A stretch of DNA of 64,000 bases, from assembly GCF_022808675.1 (NCBI RefSeq), contig NZ_JAKZKV010000013.1, positions 62,001 to 126,000 on the forward strand, read 5' to 3'. The DNA comes from Parabacteroides sp. FAFU027 (GTDB taxonomy: Bacteria > Bacteroidota > Bacteroidia > Bacteroidales > UBA7332). Position numbers and translations under genes: made by a program. The first letter of the stretch is position 1, and each line of letters begins with the position of its first letter. This document shows positions 8,723-49,837 of this stretch, piece by piece. A model generated the notes under the pieces. The model saw nothing but the letters and a program-made list of their open reading frames with translations, did no database searches and was not told the origin of the DNA.

Positions 8723-8797
8723 TTTAAAATCAGGTCAAAAATAACAATATAAATTGATTTGGGCGGACGAAGCGGCTATTAATAATCTGAAAAAAGC

Positions 8798-8805
8798 TAA
8801 TTTTG
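8798..8805 (+). promoter_or_regulatory. -7 promoter box that sets the mfd start
   Basis: TAATTTTG matches TAnnTTTG. It lies inside the longest possible mfd reading frame, which opens with TTG at 8754, so that upstream start would precede the transcript. Transcription would begin near 8812 and favours the TTG at 8835. A clear -33 element is not visible. Confidence 0.5.
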
Positions 8806-8834
8806 CAGCTATCGACAGACTAAATCAATTCATT

Positions 8835-11800
8835 TTGGAACTTACCGAGTTATTTGAGTTATACCCTAACCATCGGAACTTAAAAGCATTAGCCTCATTA
8901 GTTAATGATGACAAATCGCAGGTGATTCGCCTCGAAGGTATAAAGGGCTCATTAGTGGGAATTATCTTCTCATCACTTACAAAGACCACCAACCAACTAT
9001 ACATGGTGGTGATGAACGATGCCGAAGAGGCGGGTTATCTTTATCACGACATGACCCAGATTTGTGGGGAAAGCGATGTCTTTTTCTTCCCATCTTCTTA
9101 TAAAAGAGCAATTAAATACGGACAAATCGACCACGCCAACGCCATTCTGCGCACTGAAGCGCTCAACCGCTTGCGCCAGGCAAACGGTGCATCTGTTATC
9201 GTGACCTATCCGGATGCTTTGGCCGAAAAGGTAGTTTCGGATACGACACTCAGCTCGAAGACGTTGCGGATTGCCCAAAATGAGTCGGTTGACTCCGTCT
9301 TCGTGGCAGATGTGCTATACGAATACGGATTCGAACGGGTAGAATATGTCTATGAACCGGGGCAATATGCTGTGCGCGGTAGTATTCTGGACGTATTTTC
9401 CTTTTCACATGAATTCCCCTACCGCATCGACTTCTTCGGTGATGAGGTGGAAAGTATCCGGACGTTTGATGTCGAAAGCCAGCTTTCCAAAGAGAAGCTG
9501 ATGGAGATTTTCATTATTCCGAATCTGGAAAGTGACGAAATGGAAGGTGTCTCCCTGATGGAATTTCTGCCTGAAAATTGCATCCTGGGCGTGCAGGACC
9601 TCGCCTGGATACAGGGACGTGTCGAAGGCATCGTAGCGGAAGGCATCTCCCCGCAGGCCATCCAATCGGAAGATTACGATGAGCAACTGACGAAAAAGCT
9701 GGTCGACCCGAAAACCTTCGCCCGGGACCTGCTTCGTTTCCGCCGAATTGATTTCGGTGCCAAAACACTGGCACAAGCTCCATCCGTACTGACATTCGAC
9801 AGCAACATTCAACCTCCTTTCCACAAGAATTTCGACCTCGTGGCGGAGTTTTGCCACAGCGTACTGGCCGACAGCTATAAACTGTACATCCTCAGTGACA
9901 GCATTAAGCAAACCCAGCGTCTGGAATCCATCTTCGAGGAACGGGGCGACAACATCCCATTCATCCCGGTACTGAAGACACTCCACGAAGGATTCATCGA
10001 CCATGACCTGAAAATTGCCTGTCTGACCGACCACCAGATTTTTGACCGTTTCCATAAATACAACCTGAAGTCTGATAAAGCCCGCTCAGGAAAGATTGCC
10101 CTCTCCATCAAAGAACTGAATCAGTTTGAAAACGGAGATTACATCGTGCACATCGACCACGGTGTGGGTAAATTCGGCGGCCTTATCCGTACCGAAATCA
10201 ACGGAAGGATGCAGGAGGTTATCAAACTCATTTTTCAGAATGAGGATATCCTCTTCGTAAGCATCCATTCACTGCACAAACTCTCCAAATACCGCGGAAA
10301 AGAGGGCGAACCACCCCGCGTAAACAAACTGGGTACGGGTGCCTGGGAGAAGATGAAGGACCGTACCAAGGCCAAAGTTAAAGACATTGCACGTGACCTC
10401 ATCAAGCTCTATGCCGAACGCCGGGAGGAGAAAGGATTCAGTTTTTCGCACGACACCTATATGCAGCAGGAGCTGGAGGCATCGTTTATCTACGAAGACA
10501 CCCCTGACCAGCTGAAATCAACCGCCGACGTCAAGCGGGATATGGAAAGCATGCGTCCGATGGACCGTCTGATTTGCGGCGATGTAGGTTTTGGAAAAAC
10601 GGAAGTGGCTGTGCGTGCGGCTTTCAAGGCGGTATCCGACAGTAAACAAGTTGCTATACTGGTACCGACTACCGTTTTGGCATTGCAACACTATAAAACC
10701 TTCAGCGAACGCCTGAAGGAATTCCCTTGCCGGGTCGATTACGTCAGTCGTGCCCGTACCGCAAAAGATATCAGGCAAATCATCAAAGACCTGCACGAAG
10801 GTAAAATTGACATATTAGTGGGAACTCACCGGCTCATCAGCAAGGACATCCAGTTCAAAGACCTGGGGCTGCTGATTGTGGACGAAGAGCAGAAATTCGG
10901 CGTATCAGTGAAGGAGAAACTGCGCCAGCTGAAGATCAACGTAGACACGCTAACCATGACAGCAACCCCGATTCCACGGACGTTGCAGTTTTCCCTGATG
11001 GGAGCGCGCGACTTATCGGTTATCCAGACTCCCCCACCCAACCGTTACCCAATCCAGACGGAGGTTCACGCCTTCAATGAGGAGATATTAAAAGAAGCCA
11101 TCCAGTTTGAGATGAGCCGCAACGGCCAAATCTTTGTCCTCAACAACCGCATCAGCAGCATTTATGATTTGGAAAATACCATCAGACGGCTCGTACCGGA
11201 TGCGCGCATCGTTGTGGGTCACGGCCAGATGGACCCGCATACATTGGAACAAATCATTCTTGATTTTGCCAATTATGAATTCGACGTACTGATTGCGACC
11301 TCCATCATCGAATCGGGTCTGGATATTCCGAATGCCAACACGATTATTGTCAATAATGCGCAAAACTTCGGACTGAGCGACCTGCACCAGTTGCGCGGAC
11401 GCGTAGGTCGAAGCAATAAAAAAGCCTTCTGTTACCTCTTTGCCCCACCGTTACACATGCTTTCGGCGGAATCAAGACGACGCCTGCAAGCCATCGAAAA
11501 CTTCTCCGAGCTGGGTAGCGGCATCCACATCGCCATGCAGGATCTCGACATCCGCGGGGCTGGGAATATGCTGGGTGCCGAGCAAAGCGGATTCATCGCC
11601 GACCTCGGATATGAGACATACCAGAAAATTCTTCAGGAAGCCGTCACGGAACTCCGAAACGAAGAGTTCAGCGACCTGTATGAGGAGGTGGAAGCCGAAG
11701 AGGTGCGTCACGGCAAGGAGCGTTTCTTTGTCACCGACACGGTGATTGAGTCGGATATGGAACTGCTCTTCCCGAATGAGTACATCCCGAATGACTCAGA

Positions 11801-12182
11801 ACGCATCTCGCTTTACCGCGAACTGGACAGCATGGAGGAAGAGAGCGAAATCCAGGCATTCATTGCCCGCCTCGAAGACCGCTTCGGTCGCGTTCCTCAA
11901 CAGGGAAAAGAGCTGATACGCATCGTTCGTCTGCGTCGTCTGGCCAAACGCCTGGGTATCGAAAAGCTGGTATTGAAAAACGAACGAGCCTTTGCCTATT
12001 TCGTTTCGGACAATGATTCCCCCTACTATCAATCGGAAGCGTTTGGTAAAGTCTTGGCCTTTATGACCGAAAACCACAAAATTTGCCAGTTACGGGATAA
12101 AAACGGAAAGCGCTCAATGGTATTATCCCAGATTAATTCGGTAGAAAAGGCCGTTGACCTGCTGCAAAAGATGTTGGGATAA
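8835..12182 (+). CDS. mfd: Transcription-repair coupling factor Mfd
   Basis: A translocase that removes RNA polymerase stalled at DNA lesions and recruits UvrA. In numbering from TTG 8835 (1115 residues) the order is a UvrB-like N-terminal module, an RNA-polymerase-interacting domain from about 425 (ELNQFENGDYIVHIDHG), Walker A GDVGFGKT near 582, DEEQ near 683, helicase motif RGRVGRS near 853 and the C-terminal TRCF domain. There is no ATG near the 5' end. The frame is open back to TTG 8754, but a -7 box at 8798 sits within that extension, and known relatives begin with a short L-x-E-L...YP-H segment that here follows 8835. TTG 8835 is my choice; 8754 remains possible. Confidence 0.95.
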   Translation: MELTELFELYPNHRNLKALASLVNDDKSQVIRLEGIKGSLVGIIFSSLTKTTNQLYMVVMNDAEEAGYLYHDMTQICGESDVFFFPSSYKRAIKYGQIDHANAILRTEALNRLRQANGASVIVTYPDALAEKVVSDTTLSSKTLRIAQNESVDSVFVADVLYEYGFERVEYVYEPGQYAVRGSILDVFSFSHEFPYRIDFFGDEVESIRTFDVESQLSKEKLMEIFIIPNLESDEMEGVSLMEFLPENCILGVQDLAWIQGRVEGIVAEGISPQAIQSEDYDEQLTKKLVDPKTFARDLLRFRRIDFGAKTLAQAPSVLTFDSNIQPPFHKNFDLVAEFCHSVLADSYKLYILSDSIKQTQRLESIFEERGDNIPFIPVLKTLHEGFIDHDLKIACLTDHQIFDRFHKYNLKSDKARSGKIALSIKELNQFENGDYIVHIDHGVGKFGGLIRTEINGRMQEVIKLIFQNEDILFVSIHSLHKLSKYRGKEGEPPRVNKLGTGAWEKMKDRTKAKVKDIARDLIKLYAERREEKGFSFSHDTYMQQELEASFIYEDTPDQLKSTADVKRDMESMRPMDRLICGDVGFGKTEVAVRAAFKAVSDSKQVAILVPTTVLALQHYKTFSERLKEFPCRVDYVSRARTAKDIRQIIKDLHEGKIDILVGTHRLISKDIQFKDLGLLIVDEEQKFGVSVKEKLRQLKINVDTLTMTATPIPRTLQFSLMGARDLSVIQTPPPNRYPIQTEVHAFNEEILKEAIQFEMSRNGQIFVLNNRISSIYDLENTIRRLVPDARIVVGHGQMDPHTLEQIILDFANYEFDVLIATSIIESGLDIPNANTIIVNNAQNFGLSDLHQLRGRVGRSNKKAFCYLFAPPLHMLSAESRRRLQAIENFSELGSGIHIAMQDLDIRGAGNMLGAEQSGFIADLGYETYQKILQEAVTELRNEEFSDLYEEVEAEEVRHGKERFFVTDTVIESDMELLFPNEYIPNDSERISLYRELDSMEEESEIQAFIARLEDRFGRVPQQGKELIRIVRLRRLAKRLGIEKLVLKNERAFAYFVSDNDSPYYQSEAFGKVLAFMTENHKICQLRDKNGKRSMVLSQINSVEKAVDLLQKMLG

Positions 12183-12359: not shown

Positions 12360-12430
12360 GGTTCCTTGGCCGAGTGGTTAGGCACCGGTCTGCAAAACCG
12401 TTTACGGCGGTTCGAATCCGCCAGGAACCT
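12360..12430 (+). tRNA. tRNA-Cys (anticodon GCA)
   Basis: The cloverleaf folds with acceptor GGTTCCT / AGGAACC and anticodon loop CTGCAAA (GCA). Discriminator base T73 is the known identity element for tRNA-Cys. CCA is not encoded. The last 22 bases before the discriminator recur exactly at 16998-17019. Confidence 0.95.
12408..12429 (+). repeat. Direct repeat, copy 1: 3' end of tRNA-Cys (candidate att site)
   Basis: Twenty-two bases covering the T-arm and 3' acceptor strand are identical to 16998-17019. Intact tRNA at one end and a 3' fragment at the other is the usual footprint of site-specific integration into a tRNA gene. No integrase lies between the copies. Confidence 0.6.
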
Positions 12431-12433
12431 CAA

Positions 12434-12466
12434 AAAGCGTTGGAATTTTTCCAGCGCTTTTTTGTT
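12434..12466 (+). terminator. Rho-independent terminator of tRNA-Cys
   Basis: AAAGCGTTGG (12434-12443) pairs with CCAGCGCTTT (12451-12460, one G-U pair), followed by six T in all before a G. The remaining bases up to queE show nothing further. Confidence 0.85.
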
Positions 12467-12642
12467 TTTATCACCCTCTTGCCCCTTACTCCTTTTAAAT
12501 ACAAAAAAAATAAAGCGCCACTATCCGAAAATAATGACACTTCTATATATTCTTCAGTCAATGAAACTGCGTGCAATATCAGCACATAGTCCGATCTGAC
12601 TACCAGCTAATTATCTTAATTTCTTAATACCCTTAATATCTT

Positions 12643-13344
12643 TCATTTCAAACTTATCGGCGCTTTACTATTCGGGTCGAGCATATCACAGTTATACACC
12701 TTGTGCAACTGCACTCCGGCCCTGTAACGACGGGGATGCGACTTTACAGCACGGGTAATACCATCCAATAATTCAACGCTCAGGCTGTTTGCCTCAGGCT
12801 GCAACCAAATATCAGGAGCTGATAATCGAACCTCATTAGGAAGACAATATTCACCAATCTCATTCCACCACTCTTCCGCCGAATCAGCATTTTCCATGAT
12901 AATCTTTATCTCGCTGGCTTTCTGTACATTCTCAGCCAACGGAAGCATATTCCACTTCGGACTCACGGTTATCCAGTCGAAATCTCCACGGATAGAATAG
13001 GCGCCGCTGGTCTCTATATGGGTCTGCAATCCCTGATCATGTAATGCGGTAGTCAACGCTGTCAAATCATAAATCGCAGGCTCGCCACCCGTGATTACGG
13101 CAAACGAAGCACCACTCATGCGCGCCATCTGGGCCAGTTCGACTACAGGAATCTTTTCTATTTTTGAGGGAAGATGATCTTTGTGCCAGGTTCCGATAGA
13201 GTCACACCAACTACATTGCACCGGGCAACCGATAGTCCGGATAAAAAATGCAGCACGACCAATGTGTGTACCCTCTCCCTGAAAAGCGTAAAAGGTCTCG
13301 TAAACCGGCAATGAAGCAGAGCTGTTACTCTGTAAATCCTTCAT
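12643..13344 (-). CDS. queE: 7-carboxy-7-deazaguanine synthase QueE
   Basis: A radical-SAM enzyme that ring-contracts 6-carboxytetrahydropterin to 7-carboxy-7-deazaguanine in the queuosine pathway. The cluster motif CPVQCSWC (CX3CX2C) binds the 4Fe-4S cluster, and GGEP of the SAM-binding region follows. The segment YETFYAFQGEGTHIGR is the family N-terminus. The frame is open to an ATG at 13551, but that extension is the antisense reading of queD. The ATG at 13344 (233 residues, family-like length) is chosen, giving a 20-base overlap with queD. An ATG at 13371 is the alternative. The gene is co-transcribed with queD, which makes its substrate. Confidence 0.93.
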   Translation of the reverse strand: MKDLQSNSSASLPVYETFYAFQGEGTHIGRAAFFIRTIGCPVQCSWCDSIGTWHKDHLPSKIEKIPVVELAQMARMSGASFAVITGGEPAIYDLTALTTALHDQGLQTHIETSGAYSIRGDFDWITVSPKWNMLPLAENVQKASEIKIIMENADSAEEWWNEIGEYCLPNEVRLSAPDIWLQPEANSLSVELLDGITRAVKSHPRRYRAGVQLHKVYNCDMLDPNSKAPISLK

Positions 13345-13768
13345 ATGCGGCACTGTTTTTGGAATCTTCATATACAACAACCTTTGAGCAGAAAACACGT
13401 CCACCGGTCTCTTCCCGGATAAACTTATCGGCAAGTCCGAAAACAAACTCAGCCAATCCTTCAGCCCCACAAGAAGGCACAATGCGCACATCGGCCAACT
13501 TACGGGCATGCATATCCTCAAAGAAAGCACGCTCCGGATCGTCCTCATCAATCAACAGGGTGTGATCAAAATAGTATTCCAGTTGTGCTTTAAGCGGACG
13601 CAATGCTCCAAAATCATAAACAAAATGCTGATGGTCCAACTCTTTTGCACGAAAGGAGATGTCGATGCGCCAGTTTTCGCCATGTGCAAATGCACAATGC
13701 CCGCAATGGCGCCATTGACGATGTGCAGCTTTAAGATTGTCGTATGATTTAGTGATAGTATGATACAT
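13325..13768 (-). CDS. queD: 6-carboxy-5,6,7,8-tetrahydropterin synthase QueD (PTPS family)
   Basis: A 147-residue PTPS-fold protein. His16 (AAHR), the catalytic-type Cys25 and His29 are placed as in QueD, and the later D-H pair (YFDHTLL) and Glu (AEG) are present. The usual HGH zinc motif reads HGE here (29-31), so the third zinc ligand would be Glu31. The family converts 7,8-dihydroneopterin triphosphate to 6-carboxytetrahydropterin. Its overlap with queE supports the queuosine role. TATCTTTG at 13806-13813 is the probable promoter. Confidence 0.9.
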   Translation of the reverse strand: MYHTITKSYDNLKAAHRQWRHCGHCAFAHGENWRIDISFRAKELDHQHFVYDFGALRPLKAQLEYYFDHTLLIDEDDPERAFFEDMHARKLADVRIVPSCGAEGLAEFVFGLADKFIREETGGRVFCSKVVVYEDSKNSAAYEGFTE

Positions 13769-13805
13769 ATTTTAGTGCAAAAGTGCTGTTTTAAAAATCA
13801 GTGCG

Positions 13806-13813
13806 CAAAGATA
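13806..13813 (-). promoter_or_regulatory. -7 promoter box of queD-queE
   Basis: TATCTTTG on the minus strand, about 38 bases before the queD ATG; it matches TAnnTTTG. Confidence 0.55.
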
Positions 13814-14095
13814 GCGATTTAACCCCGATTGTAAAAACGGCTTTTCATCAGGCCTGATAACGATTGCTAAATATCTTTACGCATATTTCGTGAATCCGAT
13901 TATGCTGATCCCATCATTGATAAGAAAAAACTCACGGGTACTAAAACATTCAAATCCGATTTTGGTTTATCAATCACCAACGTAACCCTACGACATTAAC
14001 ACAGTAAAGAGAACTTTAATGAAGTTTCCAAACTTGAATTCAGATAAAAAAGATTGTTGTTTATGTAAAAAGGGAAGAAGAGAGAAACCTTTGAA

Positions 14096-14278
14096 ATCCT
14101 CTGCCTTGTTCAGGCAGAGGATCTGACTCTTCACAGAGATTCCAAAAGTTTGGTTTGTATTTTGCTGTTGTTTGTTGTTCTTCGCATTGAAGAGATGAAG
14201 ATTGCTGCATCTTCAGGTTACAAAGATTACAACACCAACATTAAACAGAACTTAAAACCAACCTTAAAATCACATTAA
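14096..14278 (+). other. Strong hairpin plus 27-codon ORF in a 526-base gap
   Basis: Between queD and the acetyltransferase (13769-14294) there is a perfect 10-bp stem ATCCTCTGCC / GGCAGAGGAT (14096-14105 and 14113-14122). A T/G-rich stretch follows, then an ATG at 14195 opening 27 codons to 14278. The predicted peptide begins MKIAASSGYKDYNTN and is basic at its end. The layout resembles that at 2060-2159: hairpin, spacer, small ORF. It could be a small RNA, a leader or a small protein gene; I do not recognise it. The first 250 bases of the gap hold only the queD promoter. Confidence 0.35.
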
Positions 14279-14294
14279 AATATCTTAGCAGAAT

Positions 14295-14831
14295 TCAACG
14301 ATAGACAAACCGCTTTAATTTCGCTGTAATATGATCAAGCACATCAACTACATCAATATCACCATATCCCATCAAAAGTAAGCGGACAGCGCTTTTCTCC
14401 GGAGAATATGGAGGCTGCCAATAATCCACATCATATAGACAAAATCCCAATTGCTCATAAAACTGAATCCGTCTTTTCTGATCGGCATGAACCGGAGGCT
14501 CCACCTCTAACACAACCGGCAGCTGTTGCATGGAAAGCCAAAGTCGTATCGACTCCTTCCCTATCCCGCGTCCGCGCAAATGATGATCAACAGCAAAATG
14601 CTCCAGAAAAACGAAATCATCCAGATGCCAGTTTATCAGGAAACCGGCAGGCTTTCCACCCTTCACTATCAAATTAAAAGTTTGCCGTGATTCAGACTGA
14701 CACAATTGCATTAAATCTTTGAAATTCCGCCGCTCCTCCGGTGGAAATGATGATATATAGAGCTGTTCCACAAACTCCTGATAACAATCTGTTATTATCG
14801 TTAAGGTTTCTATCTGAATCATTTTCGGCAC
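14295..14831 (-). CDS. GNAT-family N-acetyltransferase
   Basis: A 178-residue protein. The acetyl-CoA-binding motif A is HLRGRGIGKE (R-x-x-G-x-G), preceded by the beta-strand segment LEHFAVD. The later segment RIQFYEQLGF is typical of GNAT motif B. The substrate is unknown, and the gene is isolated, so context does not help. There is no signal peptide, so it is cytoplasmic. The ATG at 14831 is followed by another at codon 4; either could be used. Confidence 0.85.
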   Translation of the reverse strand: MPKMIQIETLTIITDCYQEFVEQLYISSFPPEERRNFKDLMQLCQSESRQTFNLIVKGGKPAGFLINWHLDDFVFLEHFAVDHHLRGRGIGKESIRLWLSMQQLPVVLEVEPPVHADQKRRIQFYEQLGFCLYDVDYWQPPYSPEKSAVRLLLMGYGDIDVVDVLDHITAKLKRFVYR

Positions 14832-14923
14832 GATTTTATTTCAATTTATAGCCAGGACATACAATCTGGCTACAAATTACAACAAAAAGAAGAAAGTTCG
14901 ACTCAATTCTCCCCGAAAAATGA

Positions 14924-14931
14924 TAATTTTG
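14924..14931 (+). promoter_or_regulatory. -7 promoter box of the Lrp/AsnC gene
   Basis: TAATTTTG matches TAnnTTTG and lies 36 bases before the ATG at 14968. Confidence 0.55.
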
Positions 14932-14967
14932 TAAGACAGTAATTTCAACTCACACACTTTATCCGCA

Positions 14968-15444
14968 ATGGCACAACATCAATTAGACAGTCTGGACATC
15001 AAAATCCTAAAGCTGATCGCAGGCAATGCCCGTATCCCCTTCCTTGAAGTCGCCCGTGAATGTAACGTATCCGGAGCCGCAATCCACCAGCGTGTACAAA
15101 AACTGACTTCACTCAACATCATCAAAGGGTCGGAGTACATCATCGATGCTACAAAAATCGGGTATGACACCTGCTCCTATATGGGGTTATTTCTCAAAGA
15201 TCCCGTCCACTTCAATGACGTGGTAGAAGCCCTGCAAACCATACCGGAAGTGGTTGAGTGCCATTATACTACCGGCGAATACGACCTCTTCATCAAGATA
15301 TATGCCAAAAACAATAACGACCTGCTGAATCTCATCCACGACAAACTGCAGCCACTGGGGCTTTCGCGTACGGTTTCCCTGATCTCGTTCAAGGAAGCAT
15401 TTCGCCGCCAGATTCCTATTTGCGACCTGGAGGGAGAAGAGTAA
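14968..15444 (+). CDS. Lrp/AsnC-family transcriptional regulator
   Basis: A 158-residue protein with the standard two-part layout. The N-terminal winged helix-turn-helix (LDSLDIKILKLIAGNARIPFLEVA, then VSGAAIHQRVQKL) is followed by a C-terminal RAM/AsnC ligand domain from about residue 70 (YMGLFLKDP...VVECHYTTGEYDLFIKI). The family binds amino acids and forms octamers that wrap DNA. The target genes are not evident. It is followed after 66 bases by suhB, which has its own -7 box, so co-transcription is uncertain. Confidence 0.93.
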   Translation: MAQHQLDSLDIKILKLIAGNARIPFLEVARECNVSGAAIHQRVQKLTSLNIIKGSEYIIDATKIGYDTCSYMGLFLKDPVHFNDVVEALQTIPEVVECHYTTGEYDLFIKIYAKNNNDLLNLIHDKLQPLGLSRTVSLISFKEAFRRQIPICDLEGEE

Positions 15445-15472
15445 AACAGCCTGATTACGCTGAATAAATTCG

Positions 15473-15480
15473 TACCTTTG
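15473..15480 (+). promoter_or_regulatory. -7 promoter box of suhB
   Basis: TACCTTTG matches TAnnTTTG, 30 bases before the ATG at 15511. Confidence 0.55.
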
Positions 15481-15510
15481 CGACATTCAGCAAATTAATT
15501 CTGATTTAAT

Positions 15511-16290
15511 ATGTACAAAGAGTTTGACATCAATGAATGCCTCGCTCAGACTATTACCTGGGCAAAAGAGGTTGGCAAAATACATCTCGAATATTTCCGC
15601 AAAAAAGAGCTTTCCATCGAAACTAAGTCAAGCTCTTACGACCTGCTTACCATCGCCGACAAACTGAGCGAAGAGTACATCGTCGAGCAAATCCGCCACG
15701 CTTACCCCGACCATCAGGTCCTGGCCGAAGAGAGCGGACTGAACGAAATGGTCTCTGACTTTTGCTGGGTAATCGACCCTGTAGATGGCACCACCAACTT
15801 TGCACAGGGCATTCCTATCTTTTCGGTCTCCATTGGCCTGAGATACAGAGGTAAAGGCATCATGGGCGTTGTATATGCACCGTTTATGGATGAACTCTTC
15901 TACGCAATAAAAGGCCAGGGTGTATTCCACAACGGAAAACCCATCCACGTCTCCAACAAAACCGAACTGCACCAATCCCTGCTTTGTACCGGTTTCCCTT
16001 ACGACCACGGAACCAATCCGGACAATAACACTGATAACATCGCCCGCATTCTCCCGCATTGCCGTGACATTCGCCGCCTGGGCTCAGCAGCTTATGACCT
16101 TTGCTGCATTGCGGCTGGATATTTTGACGGATTCTGGGAAATGAACCTCAAAGACTGGGACGTAGCTGCTGCCACGGTCATTATTGAAGAGGCCGGTGGT
16201 CAGGTGATTCGTTTCCGCAAAGAGCCCAACTATTGCATCATTGCGGCAAACGCTCTGATTGTTGGTCAGATGCAGGAGTATATAAAATAA
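15511..16290 (+). CDS. suhB: Inositol-1-monophosphatase family protein (SuhB)
   Basis: A 259-residue magnesium-dependent phosphatase. The metal-site motifs are all present: EES in the first (LAEESG), DPVDGTTNF for the second and WDVAAATVIIEEAGG for the third. The family dephosphorylates inositol-1-phosphate and related sugar phosphates; in E. coli SuhB also acts in rRNA transcription. Which role applies here cannot be told. Length and motifs are normal. The stop is followed directly by a C-rich/G-rich hairpin. Confidence 0.92.
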   Translation: MYKEFDINECLAQTITWAKEVGKIHLEYFRKKELSIETKSSSYDLLTIADKLSEEYIVEQIRHAYPDHQVLAEESGLNEMVSDFCWVIDPVDGTTNFAQGIPIFSVSIGLRYRGKGIMGVVYAPFMDELFYAIKGQGVFHNGKPIHVSNKTELHQSLLCTGFPYDHGTNPDNNTDNIARILPHCRDIRRLGSAAYDLCCIAAGYFDGFWEMNLKDWDVAAATVIIEEAGGQVIRFRKEPNYCIIAANALIVGQMQEYIK

Positions 16291-16303
16291 GGGACCTCCC
16301 CTA

Positions 16304-16320
16304 TCCCTCCAAAGGAGGGA
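16304..16320 (+). repeat. CCCTCC/GGAGGG stop-proximal hairpin, copy 1
   Basis: TCCCTCC-AAA-GGAGGGA lies 14 bases after the suhB stop. Related hairpins follow the stops of mutS2 (19542-19566) and the cyclophilin gene (29139-29157). Confidence 0.5.
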
Positions 16321-16335
16321 CTTAATATATCTGGT

Positions 16336-16641
16336 ATGGATAAATTAATCAAAACTCAACTCAAAAAACTGAAGCCAGTCTTTCAATCTCATAAAGTGAT
16401 TAAGGCTTATATATTCGGCTCCGTTCTATCGGATAAATTTAACCCTGAAAGTGATATTGATTTCCTTGTCACTTTTCAGGATGACCTTGAGCCTCTGGAG
16501 AAAGGTGAACTCTGGTGGTCTCTCTATGACACGTTGAGAGAACTTTTTCATCGGGAAATTGACCTGGTTACTGAGAATTCACTTAAAAATCCATACTTTA
16601 TCGAAGAAGTAAACCAGACTAAACAATTGATTTATGGTTAA
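16336..16641 (+). CDS. mntA: MntA-type minimal nucleotidyltransferase antitoxin
   Basis: A 101-residue polymerase-beta-fold nucleotidyltransferase with the GSX10DXD signature: Gly28-Ser29, then Asp40 and Asp42 in SDIDFLV. In characterised pairs, MntA neutralises its HEPN toxin by adding AMP groups to a tyrosine of the toxin. The stop overlaps the start of the HEPN gene by 8 bases, as expected of a toxin-antitoxin operon. The base composition is more A/T-rich than in neighbouring suhB and mutS2, consistent with acquisition. Function is inferred from the family and the pairing. Confidence 0.88.
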   Translation: MDKLIKTQLKKLKPVFQSHKVIKAYIFGSVLSDKFNPESDIDFLVTFQDDLEPLEKGELWWSLYDTLRELFHREIDLVTENSLKNPYFIEEVNQTKQLIYG

Positions 16642-16966
16642 TGCCGTAAAAAAATACTTGTTCGACATCCAGTCTTGCATCAGCAATATTGACAAATACA
16701 TCGGAGAACCGAAGATATATCAGGCGTATTTGAAAAATGAGATGTTGCAGGATGCGGTGGAAAGAAACCTTGAGATTATCGGAGAAGCTATAAATCAACT
16801 ATTAAAAATACAACCGGACATCAAAATTACGAATGCCCGCCGGATTGTAGATGCCCGAAATAAAATTATCCATGGTTATGACAGTATAGAACCTGTAAAC
16901 ATTTGGGCTATCATCATAAACCATTTGCCTATTCTCAACGCTGAAGTAGAAGAACTCTTGAAATAA
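16634..16966 (+). CDS. hepT: HepT-like HEPN ribonuclease toxin (DUF86)
   Basis: A 110-residue helical HEPN protein. The active-site motif RX4HXY is intact: Arg75, His80 and Tyr82 in ARNKIIHGY. HepT toxins cleave RNA and are held in check by AMPylation of that Tyr by the paired MntA. The pair ends only 31 bases before a 22-bp copy of the tRNA-Cys 3' end, so it sits at the edge of a possible integrated segment. No defence genes are adjacent; plasmid or island stabilisation, or phage defence, are both possible roles. Confidence 0.9.
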   Translation: MVNAVKKYLFDIQSCISNIDKYIGEPKIYQAYLKNEMLQDAVERNLEIIGEAINQLLKIQPDIKITNARRIVDARNKIIHGYDSIEPVNIWAIIINHLPILNAEVEELLK

Positions 16967-16997
16967 ATATCAGTAATTTAACTGGACTACTAATATC

Positions 16998-17019
16998 CGG
17001 TTCGAATCCGCCAGGAACC
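16998..17019 (+). repeat. Direct repeat, copy 2: 3' fragment of tRNA-Cys (candidate att site)
   Basis: Exact 22-base match to 12408-12429. The rest of a tRNA is absent, since upstream bases run straight into the hepT end. The mutS2 start is 38 bases further on. Confidence 0.6.
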
Positions 17020-17057: not shown

Positions 17058-19541
17058 GTGATTTATCCCAATAATTTCGAAGAGAAAATCGGATTTGACA
17101 AAATCCGCCAATTGATATCCGATAAATGCCTCAGTCTGCTGGGCAAAGACAAAGTGCATGAGATGGATTTTTCCATCCACTACGAAGAGGTGAAAACCCG
17201 CCTCGGATGCACAGAAGAGATGGTGCGTATCCTGCAACTGGAGGACGAATTTCCCGCCAACTACTTTTTTGATGTCCGCATTCCACTGAAACGCATTCGT
17301 GTGGAGGGAACTTTCCTCGACGAGCCGGAGCTGTTTGACCTGCGTCGTTCGCTGGAGACCATACGCGACATTGCCCGCTTTTTCAAAAACGAGAAGGAAG
17401 GAGAAGCCAGATATCCGTATCTGACAGAAATGACGGCTAACGTCATGCTATTTCCGCAGATTCTTATTTCCATAGATAAAATTCTGGATAAGTTCGGTCG
17501 TGTAAAAGACAATGCTTCGCCCGAACTGGCTCGTATCCGCCGGGAAATTATCCATACTTCGAGCTCTATCTCTCGCAGTTTACAATCCATAATGCGTGCG
17601 GCTCAGGCTGAAGGTATTGTGGAAAAAGACCAGGCCCCAACCATGCGCGATGGCCGACTGATGATTCCGGTAGCACCCGCTTACAAGCGGAAAATCAAAG
17701 GAATCGTTCACGATGAGTCTGCCAGCGGTAAAACGGTTTTCATCGAACCTGCAGAAGTGGTGGAAGCCAACAACCGAATCCGCGAACTCGAAGGCGAAGA
17801 GCGTCGGGAGGTCATCCGCATTCTGGTGAGAATGGCAGACGAAATACGCCCCTTTGCCGAAGACATCCTCGGCTCATACGATTATTTAGGTGAAATAGAC
17901 TTTACCCGGGCGAAGGCTTCATTCTCCATTGAAATTAACGGTATCCTGCCAACCTTCGAGAACAAACGCCAGATTGACTGGCAACGGGCCATTCACCCCC
18001 TACTCTACTTATCTCATAAGAAACAGAATAAATCGGTCGTTCCGCTCGATATTGAACTGGATGAAAAGAATCGTATTCTACTGATTTCCGGGCCGAATGC
18101 AGGTGGCAAGTCGGTGTGTCTCAAAACAGTGGGATTACTGCAATACATGTTGCAGAGCGGATTGCTTATTCCGGTTTATGAGAGTTCACGAACCGGTATT
18201 TTCCACGATATCTTTATCGATATCGGTGACGAACAGTCCATTGAAAACGACCTGAGTACCTACAGCTCGCACCTCACCAACATGAAGCACTTCGTGCGCC
18301 GTTGCAACGAAAACTCAATCCTGTTGATTGACGAATTCGGGGGCGGTACCGAACCTCAGATTGGTGGTGCAATTGCCGAAGCCCTGCTGGACCGCTTCAA
18401 CCGCAATATGTCATACGGCGTCATCACCACCCATTATCAGAATCTGAAGCATTTTGCCGAAGACCACGAAGGAATCATCAACGGCGCCATGCTCTATGAC
18501 CGCCACCTGATGCAACCACTGTTTAAGCTTTCCATTGGAAATCCGGGAAGCTCATTTGCCGTGGAGATTGCACGCAAAATCGGATTGCCGGAGGATGTGA
18601 TTGCCGATGCTTCGGAAAAAGTGGGTTCAGACTACATCGATATGGACAAATACCTCCAGGATATTGTGCGTGACAAACGTTATTGGGAAAGCAAACGCCA
18701 GACCATTCGCCAGAAAGAGAAAAAACTGGAAGAATTGTCGGAACGATACGAGGAAGACCTCAATAAAATAGCTGCCCAGCGCAAAGAGCTGATGGCAAAA
18801 GCTAAAGCCGATGCTGAACGCATTTTGGCGGAAGCCAATGCCATGGTAGAAAATACCATTCGGAAAATCAAGGAGGCTCAGGCCGAAAAAGAATCTACCC
18901 GTCTCGCCCGCAAAGAGATGGAGGAATTCAAAGCGAAGCTGGCTGAACAAGAGGCGGCCAACGATGATATGATTGCCCGCAAAATCAAAAAGATTCAGGA
19001 GCGGGAAGAGCGTAAGAAGCAGGGCAAACCACAGAAGCCGGTTGAAGGTCAGAAGAAAGTCTTCCGTCCGGAAATAATTGAGACAGGTGATGCTGTCCGT
19101 CTGAAAGGGCAAACAACCATTGGAGAAGTACTTGAAGTCAGTGGTAAAAATGCGCTGGTTGCATTTGGAATGCTCAAATCAACCGTTCAGCTTGAACGAC
19201 TCGAAAAAATGAGCAAAAATCAGATTAAGAAAGAGACTCCCAAATCGACTTTCGTCAGCCAACAGACTGCCGATGACATCTATGAGCGAAAGATGAATTT
19301 CAAACAGGAGATTGATGTACGTGGGATGCGCGGCGATGAAGCGTTGCAGGCCGTGGTCTATTTCATTGATGATGCAATATTGGTAGGTGTGGCACAAGTC
19401 CGCATCCTGCATGGAACGGGGACAGGTGCCTTGCGTCAAATCATCCGCGATTACCTGAAAACAGTACATGGTGTGAAGAAATTCCGGGATGAACATGTGC
19501 AATTCGGTGGAGCGGGCATTACGGTGGTGGAATTGGAGTAA
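17058..19541 (+). CDS. mutS2: Endonuclease MutS2
   Basis: An 827-residue MutS2 with a GTG start; no ATG fits the family N-terminus (NNFEEKIGFDKIRQLI). Walker A GPNAGGKS is near 345-352 and Walker B ILLIDEFGGGTEP near 420. A long charged coiled-coil stretch follows (about 540-660). The C-terminal Smr nuclease domain is complete (IDVRGMRGDEA, then HGTGTGALR). MutS2 does not act in mismatch repair; in studied species it limits recombination or rescues collided ribosomes. The gene begins right after the tRNA-fragment repeat. I see no clear TAnnTTTG box in the 90 bases upstream. Confidence 0.95.
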   Translation: MIYPNNFEEKIGFDKIRQLISDKCLSLLGKDKVHEMDFSIHYEEVKTRLGCTEEMVRILQLEDEFPANYFFDVRIPLKRIRVEGTFLDEPELFDLRRSLETIRDIARFFKNEKEGEARYPYLTEMTANVMLFPQILISIDKILDKFGRVKDNASPELARIRREIIHTSSSISRSLQSIMRAAQAEGIVEKDQAPTMRDGRLMIPVAPAYKRKIKGIVHDESASGKTVFIEPAEVVEANNRIRELEGEERREVIRILVRMADEIRPFAEDILGSYDYLGEIDFTRAKASFSIEINGILPTFENKRQIDWQRAIHPLLYLSHKKQNKSVVPLDIELDEKNRILLISGPNAGGKSVCLKTVGLLQYMLQSGLLIPVYESSRTGIFHDIFIDIGDEQSIENDLSTYSSHLTNMKHFVRRCNENSILLIDEFGGGTEPQIGGAIAEALLDRFNRNMSYGVITTHYQNLKHFAEDHEGIINGAMLYDRHLMQPLFKLSIGNPGSSFAVEIARKIGLPEDVIADASEKVGSDYIDMDKYLQDIVRDKRYWESKRQTIRQKEKKLEELSERYEEDLNKIAAQRKELMAKAKADAERILAEANAMVENTIRKIKEAQAEKESTRLARKEMEEFKAKLAEQEAANDDMIARKIKKIQEREERKKQGKPQKPVEGQKKVFRPEIIETGDAVRLKGQTTIGEVLEVSGKNALVAFGMLKSTVQLERLEKMSKNQIKKETPKSTFVSQQTADDIYERKMNFKQEIDVRGMRGDEALQAVVYFIDDAILVGVAQVRILHGTGTGALRQIIRDYLKTVHGVKKFRDEHVQFGGAGITVVELE

Positions 19542-49390: not shown

Positions 49391-49470
49391 ATTTCAATCC
49401 ACGGCAAAAAACAAATAACAACTGAACACAAACAAAAAAAGGCCACCGAAACTTCGATGACCTTATTTTG

Positions 49471-49544
49471 CTCTTCAAGTAGGACTTGAACCTACGACCC
49501 TCTGATTAACAGTCAGATGCTCTAACCGACTGAGCTATTGAAGA
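49471..49544 (-). tRNA. tRNA-Asn (anticodon GTT), array copy 4 in transcription order
   Basis: Anticodon loop CTGTTAA, acceptor TCTTCAA / TTGAAGA, discriminator G. This copy differs from the other three by a compensated change in the seventh acceptor pair (A-T instead of G-C). CCA is not encoded. Confidence 0.95.
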
Positions 49545-49567
49545 GTGTATAACCAATAAAACTTTTG

Positions 49568-49641
49568 CTCTTCAGGTAGGACTTGAACCTACGACCCTCT
49601 GATTAACAGTCAGATGCTCTAACCGACTGAGCTACTGAAGA
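49568..49641 (-). tRNA. tRNA-Asn (anticodon GTT), array copy 3
   Basis: Same fold, with acceptor TCTTCAG / CTGAAGA and anticodon GTT; the gene sequence is identical to copies 1 and 2. The spacer to the next copy repeats GTGTATAACCAATAAAAC. Confidence 0.95.
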
Positions 49642-49666
49642 GTGTGTATAACCAATAAAACTTTTG

Positions 49667-49740
49667 CTCTTCAGGTAGGACTTGAACCTACGACCCTCTG
49701 ATTAACAGTCAGATGCTCTAACCGACTGAGCTACTGAAGA
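49667..49740 (-). tRNA. tRNA-Asn (anticodon GTT), array copy 2
   Basis: Identical gene sequence to the neighbouring copies, with acceptor TCTTCAG / CTGAAGA. Tandem unit length is 96 to 99 bases across the array. Confidence 0.95.
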
Positions 49741-49763
49741 GTGTATAACCAATAAAACTTTTG

Positions 49764-49837
49764 CTCTTCAGGTAGGACTTGAACCTACGACCCTCTGATT
49801 AACAGTCAGATGCTCTAACCGACTGAGCTACTGAAGA
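49764..49837 (-). tRNA. tRNA-Asn (anticodon GTT), array copy 1 (promoter-proximal)
   Basis: First transcribed copy, with acceptor TCTTCAG / CTGAAGA and anticodon GTT. Its promoter box lies about 30 bases upstream at 49866-49873. Confidence 0.95.

Follow-up and report, generated by a model that had tools for sequence, protein, structure and literature searches.

A copy of the tRNA-Cys 3' end before mutS2 in Parabacteroides sp. FAFU027: a possible fossil attachment site around resident genes

Introduction

When a mobile element integrates into a tRNA gene, a fragment of that gene can mark the attR end. Such fragments are well documented, for example that of PYG1 in Pyrococcus yayanosii, which lies at tRNA-Gln (PMC9897764). 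Type VII toxin-antitoxin pairs, MntA/HepT, are described by the motifs GSX10DXD and RX4HXY (PMC7641770). Here we consider a locus in which a partial tRNA-Cys copy and an MntA/HepT-like pair lie side by side. The window, that is, the whole stretch of DNA analysed, comprises 64,000 nucleotides of Parabacteroides sp. FAFU027 (contig NZ_JAKZKV010000013.1), whose 4.9-Mb genome is called G000 below. Its features are collected in Table 1. The relatives most often referred to are a sister species (G002), a member of the same genus (G001) and one of the same family (G003).

The repeat and the genes that it bounds

The 22-bp sequence CGGTTCGAATCCGCCAGGAACC runs, as copy 1, to the acceptor-stem end of tRNA-Cys and recurs exactly as copy 2, on the same strand, within 4.6 kb, ending 38 bases 5' of the mutS2 start. 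With up to three mismatches allowed, the window contains these two matches only (0 expected from 100 shuffles), and a scan at up to five mismatches again returns just the two. G000 has a single tRNA-Cys gene, and the remaining matches to its repeat in the whole genome all have E values of 2 or more. Since the repeat is unique in the window, does not arise in the shuffles and has no comparable match in the genome, it is real and not a product of chance. ARAGORN finds no tRNA body 5' of copy 2. Immediately past the 22 bp, copy 2 differs from tRNA-Cys by T to C. The initial annotation had described this bodiless exact recurrence and the short distance to mutS2 correctly, and a direct repeat of a tRNA 3' end does stand at the far edge of the segment, as in tRNA-borne islands.

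Table 1. Features of the locus (positions in the window)
Feature	Position	Strand	Basis and occurrence in relatives
mfd	8754..12182	+	tblastn; immediately 5' of tRNA-Cys in G000 and G002 only
tRNA-Cys (GCA), intact; would be attL	12360..12431	+	ARAGORN; Rfam RF00005
22-bp repeat copy 1 (T-arm and 3' acceptor strand of tRNA-Cys)	12408..12429	+	
Left variable stretch	12432..12494	.	
queE-like radical SAM	12643..13395	-	Present in G002; G001 lacks it near mutS2
queD-like PTPS	13325..13768	-	Found in G002 but in neither G001 nor G003
GNAT acetyltransferase	14295..14822	-	Pfam and synteny; gene 1 of conserved trio
Lrp/AsnC regulator	14968..15444	+	Pfam; conserved trio
suhB-like inositol phosphatase	15511..16290	+	Pfam; conserved trio
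MntA-like antitoxin, GSX10DXD motif intact	16336..16641	+	Degraded in G002
HepT-like RNase toxin, RX4HXY motif intact	16634..16966	+	No match in G002 genome
22-bp repeat copy 2; putative fossil attR	16998..17019	+	Common to G002 (2 mismatches there)
mutS2, right flank	17058..19541	+	

The genes that had been named in and beside the segment (queDE, an acetyltransferase, Lrp, suhB, MntA/HepT and mutS2) are all present; the queE, queD, MntA and HepT matches score under the NCBIfam curated cut-offs, with queD and HepT above those of Pfam. The protein family search also bears out that the segment is free of an integrase: all its proteins match other families, and the integrase expected within or beside a tRNA island was not found among them. 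The sole match in G000 to the tyrosine integrase of G001 (see below) is on contig C5. Elsewhere in the window, four tandem tRNA-Asn(GTT) genes occupy 49470-49837 of the minus strand.

The mntA and hepT genes have a GC content of 0.365 against 0.43-0.49 in the other nearby genes measured, and the pair is thus A/T-rich, at the far edge of the segment, as first annotated. The genes adjoin and carry both type VII motifs. Where NCBIfam sets a cut-off of 60 bits they score 47.3 and 35.9; the HepT-like protein passes Pfam PF01934. Judged from sequence, they may be a genuine toxin-antitoxin pair derived from an integrated element, with family scores that lie under the curated cut-offs. The top PADLOC score of the MntA-like protein is for a candidate defence family, PDC-S09.

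The sister species

The mutS2 gene of G002 is 98% identical to that of the window. Its locus lies on a contig of 17,071 bases (MAG JAUZOF010000027 among the mutS2 loci; the MAG is 89% complete) and reads queE-queD-GNAT-Lrp-suhB, about 190 bases, a copy of the tRNA end with two mismatches, and mutS2, the copy being again 38 bases 5' of the gene. Within the 22 bp the G002 copy differs from tRNA-Cys by G to A. The copies of the two species thus depart from the tRNA at positions of their own, as expected of unselected relics that decay independently. Since block and copy both recur in G002, where the copy has decayed independently, the copy is older than the split between the two species. Over the 3.8 kb in common the identity is 92.9%, and over the flanks 91.2-92.6%; this similar divergence fits inheritance of the block from the common ancestor.

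The gap between suhB and mutS2 in G002 contains no intact mntA or hepT gene, and nothing in the genome as a whole (a MAG, 89% complete) matches hepT. The gap does keep a 50-bp remnant of the mntA/hepT junction (score 53, the best of 200 shuffles being 33). From this remnant it follows that the pair adjoined the copy in the ancestor, and that the gaps of G000 and G002 descend from one state. A swap of the gap between the two genomes by site-specific recombination was considered and rejected on the local alignment that revealed the remnant. At the other end, the stretch to the left of queE measures 60-70 bases in the window but comprises 1.26 kb or more of different DNA in G002, with a 269-aa ORF that falls into no known family. 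The tRNA-Cys gene of G002 is found behind mfd on a contig separate from that of the queE-mutS2 block, and this contig ends 100 bases past the tRNA.

Resident genes between the copies

In G001, GNAT-Lrp-suhB stands directly 5' of an ORF with a weak TPR match, which is followed by mutS2 (80% identical to that of the window), and the locus has neither tRNA-Cys nor the copy. At 80% identity, a fossil of 25 bases could have decayed beyond recognition, so its absence there dates no integration. The divergent order of GNAT and Lrp-suhB is kept in G001, in G002 and in two genomes of other families (G023 and G027), in which the trio is on contigs different from those of mutS2. The search with suhB covered 14 relatives, five of which have suhB at 50% identity or more; the trio occurs in four of these, and in the fifth (G013, suhB 51-53%) the contig ends about 240 bases upstream, cutting off the neighbour. 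Lrp itself is present, at E 1e-30, in 35 of 60 genomes (a count that includes G000), with an identity that declines with that of mutS2 (69% vs. 68% in G003). The trio is, in short, a resident chromosomal cluster. The accessory-looking content is limited to mntA-hepT and queDE; queD occurs in 3 of the 14 relatives, with a strong match in G002 only.

An empty site, with tRNA-Cys directly 5' of mutS2, had been proposed as something to look for in close relatives. It was found in none of the 68 mutS2 loci, not one of which includes a tRNA-Cys. Upstream of mutS2 the copy occurs in one of the 61 loci scanned, that of G002; seven of the 68 were left out as having little or no upstream DNA, and 39 of the 61 offered the full 6 kb. 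It had also been held that the segment would be no mobile element if all relatives shared the queDE-suhB block. This applies by half: G002, the closest relative, carries the block with the copy before mutS2.

The left junction is probably itself derived, because the 12 other genomes that yielded both mfd and tRNA-Cys all have them on separate contigs. In G001, mfd is on another contig, and the genes at 37.9-48.1 kb of the window are rearranged in order. Around mutS2, long-range gene order is not conserved in other families. In one Porphyromonadaceae MAG (L140, 1012-6765), mutS2 comes directly after mfd at a distance of 42 bases, which is not so in other relatives.

tRNA-Cys as an integration site

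The tRNA search covered 15 genomes, the window's own included. In G001, a prophage of about 58 kb occupies tRNA-Cys, with a 389-aa tyrosine integrase (Pfam domains Arm-DNA-bind_5, Phage_int_SAM_5 and Phage_integrase) 240 bases past the tRNA. Some genes beyond the integrase match phage families, and after 58 kb a 19-base second copy of the tRNA-Cys end follows in the same orientation. The segment shares with this prophage the tRNA gene, the side of it that is used and the second copy of its end, and differs in size, in having neither integrase nor phage genes, and in that the G001 copy starts further 3'. Two tRNA-Cys genes are present in G003, the second of which has an exact 26-bp repeat at a distance of 5.8 kb. 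On G003 contig C30 (L152, at about 96 kb) this second gene is followed by the 5.8-kb segment with an integrase fragment between repeats, which are near-identical over about 80 bp, terminator hairpin included. Three viral contigs match the 22-mer. Two of them (L180 and L181), which are prophage-like, have integrases directly past the tRNA-Cys end, 60% and 44% identical to that of G001; in the third, both tRNA-Cys genes present are complete, and nothing matches the G001 integrase.

Thus mobile elements do use tRNA-Cys for integration in this clade, and the gene is here documented as a repeatedly used site of one tyrosine-integrase group in Bacteroidales. The G001 prophage, the G003 segment and the L180 and L181 integrases all support the original suggestion that the copy is an integration footprint. 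The window repeat extends some 5-9 bases deeper into the T-arm than the G001 and G003 copies, so its element was not necessarily of their kind.

Several further observations concern phages and tRNA genes. A blastn search of phages with the segment gave 36 records. Among the 20 matches listed, 18 are at tRNA-Cys (Streptomyces and Mycobacterium phages, and a few under another label) and two, from unannotated phage records, are to the Lrp gene at 66-67%. The integrase of Bacteroides phage BT-TP2 (L288) belongs to the same group, with 41% identity to that of the tRNA-Cys prophage, and has a reverse transcriptase gene near it; the 3.8 kb around this integrase contain no tRNA-Cys end at up to two mismatches in 13 bases. 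On contig C3 of G001 (L069, 1006-2747), eight tRNA-like genes are packed in 1.8 kb; to five of them ARAGORN gives the label 'tRNA-???' and an anticodon of two bases. A literature search for tRNA-Cys as an integrase or prophage attachment site in Bacteroides/Bacteroid found no relevant paper.

Origin of the copy

The explanation we favour, with about even confidence, is that copy 2 is the fossil attR of an old integration at tRNA-Cys and that the segment is a decayed island, with resident genes rearranged into it or around it. An element with a tyrosine recombinase, a prophage or an island, would have entered the 3' end of tRNA-Cys in the ancestor of G000 and G002. The end that it brought along would have made the tRNA whole again, and the displaced end would have come to lie at the far side of the element, today 5' of mutS2. 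Afterwards the element would have been lost bit by bit; what probably remains of it is the A/T-rich MntA/HepT pair next to the copy, and perhaps also queDE with other DNA right behind the tRNA. We infer that tRNA-Cys once stood directly 5' of mutS2. That tRNA and copy lie so near each other and on one strand points to a causal connection rather than chance. Against this history, none of the 68 mutS2 loci shows the empty site, and in G002 the tRNA-Cys is on a different contig from the block. It also requires a presumed rearrangement step, since in G001 the trio is already beside mutS2, with neither tRNA nor copy. The simplest route for the trio would be a rearrangement with its breakpoint inside the decaying island.

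The G001 arrangement, trio, TPR ORF and mutS2 without a tRNA, also indicates that the gap before mutS2 itself accepts insertions. An element whose attP carried the tRNA-Cys 3' end could then have used the gap between suhB and mutS2 as a secondary, non-tRNA site, with the tRNA brought near later by an unrelated rearrangement. That the tRNA did move is suggested by its adjacency to mfd in G000 and G002 alone. Against this, the only tRNA-Cys in 4.9 Mb would have had to land by coincidence no more than 4.6 kb from the copy and in its orientation, by rough reckoning a matter of about 1 in 2000, and we consider this history unlikely. The initial annotation had taken the whole 4.6 kb as one element, decayed or mobilised in trans, with queDE, GNAT, Lrp, suhB and MntA/HepT as cargo. 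The bounding repeats, the patchy occurrence of MntA/HepT and queDE across relatives and the short tRNA-bounded segment of G003 are in keeping with that idea, but GNAT-Lrp-suhB is resident in other families, Lrp is widespread with an identity tracking that of mutS2, the divergence from G002 resembles that of the flanks, and no mutS2 locus shows an empty site. What is supported, then, is an integration footprint at tRNA-Cys; that the 12.43-16.99 kb segment is a single mobile element is quite improbable. It is very improbable that copy 2 is the 3' rump of a duplicated tRNA-Cys gene whose body was deleted by the MntA/HepT insertion. Duplication has a precedent in the two genes of G003, but no remnant of a body accompanies the copy in either species, and the identity ends at nearly the same T-arm base in both species even though hepT is deleted in G002.

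Returning to a fossil attR with rearranged resident genes, the repeats could in principle still act as a working att pair, from which an incoming integrase of the tRNA-Cys type would excise the 4.6 kb. We find this scarcely credible. If true, MntA/HepT would be a retention device, with the regulator and the phosphatase carried along, and core genes would be moved by a prophage. More generally, a correct observation of an att site can mislead on what was inserted: the segment bounded here is mostly resident.

Comparison with known systems

With PYG1 (PMC9897764), the segment has in common a partial tRNA copy and inserted DNA between it and the intact gene; the segment differs in having no integrase, a length of only 4.6 kb, and resident chromosomal DNA in the middle. 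The Riemerella anatipestifer 10K genomic island at tRNA-Arg, also of Bacteroidota, likewise has direct repeats adjoining the tRNA, but it is described with a working integrase of its own, island-free strains and 53-bp repeats (PMC6764341), in all of which the segment differs. With type VII MntA/HepT (PMC7641770), the pair of the window shares adjoining genes and both motifs, whereas its scores are under the NCBIfam cut-offs and its function is a prediction. A fossil att site around a rearranged chromosomal block is a known kind of feature, of which this locus, so read, is a modest further example.
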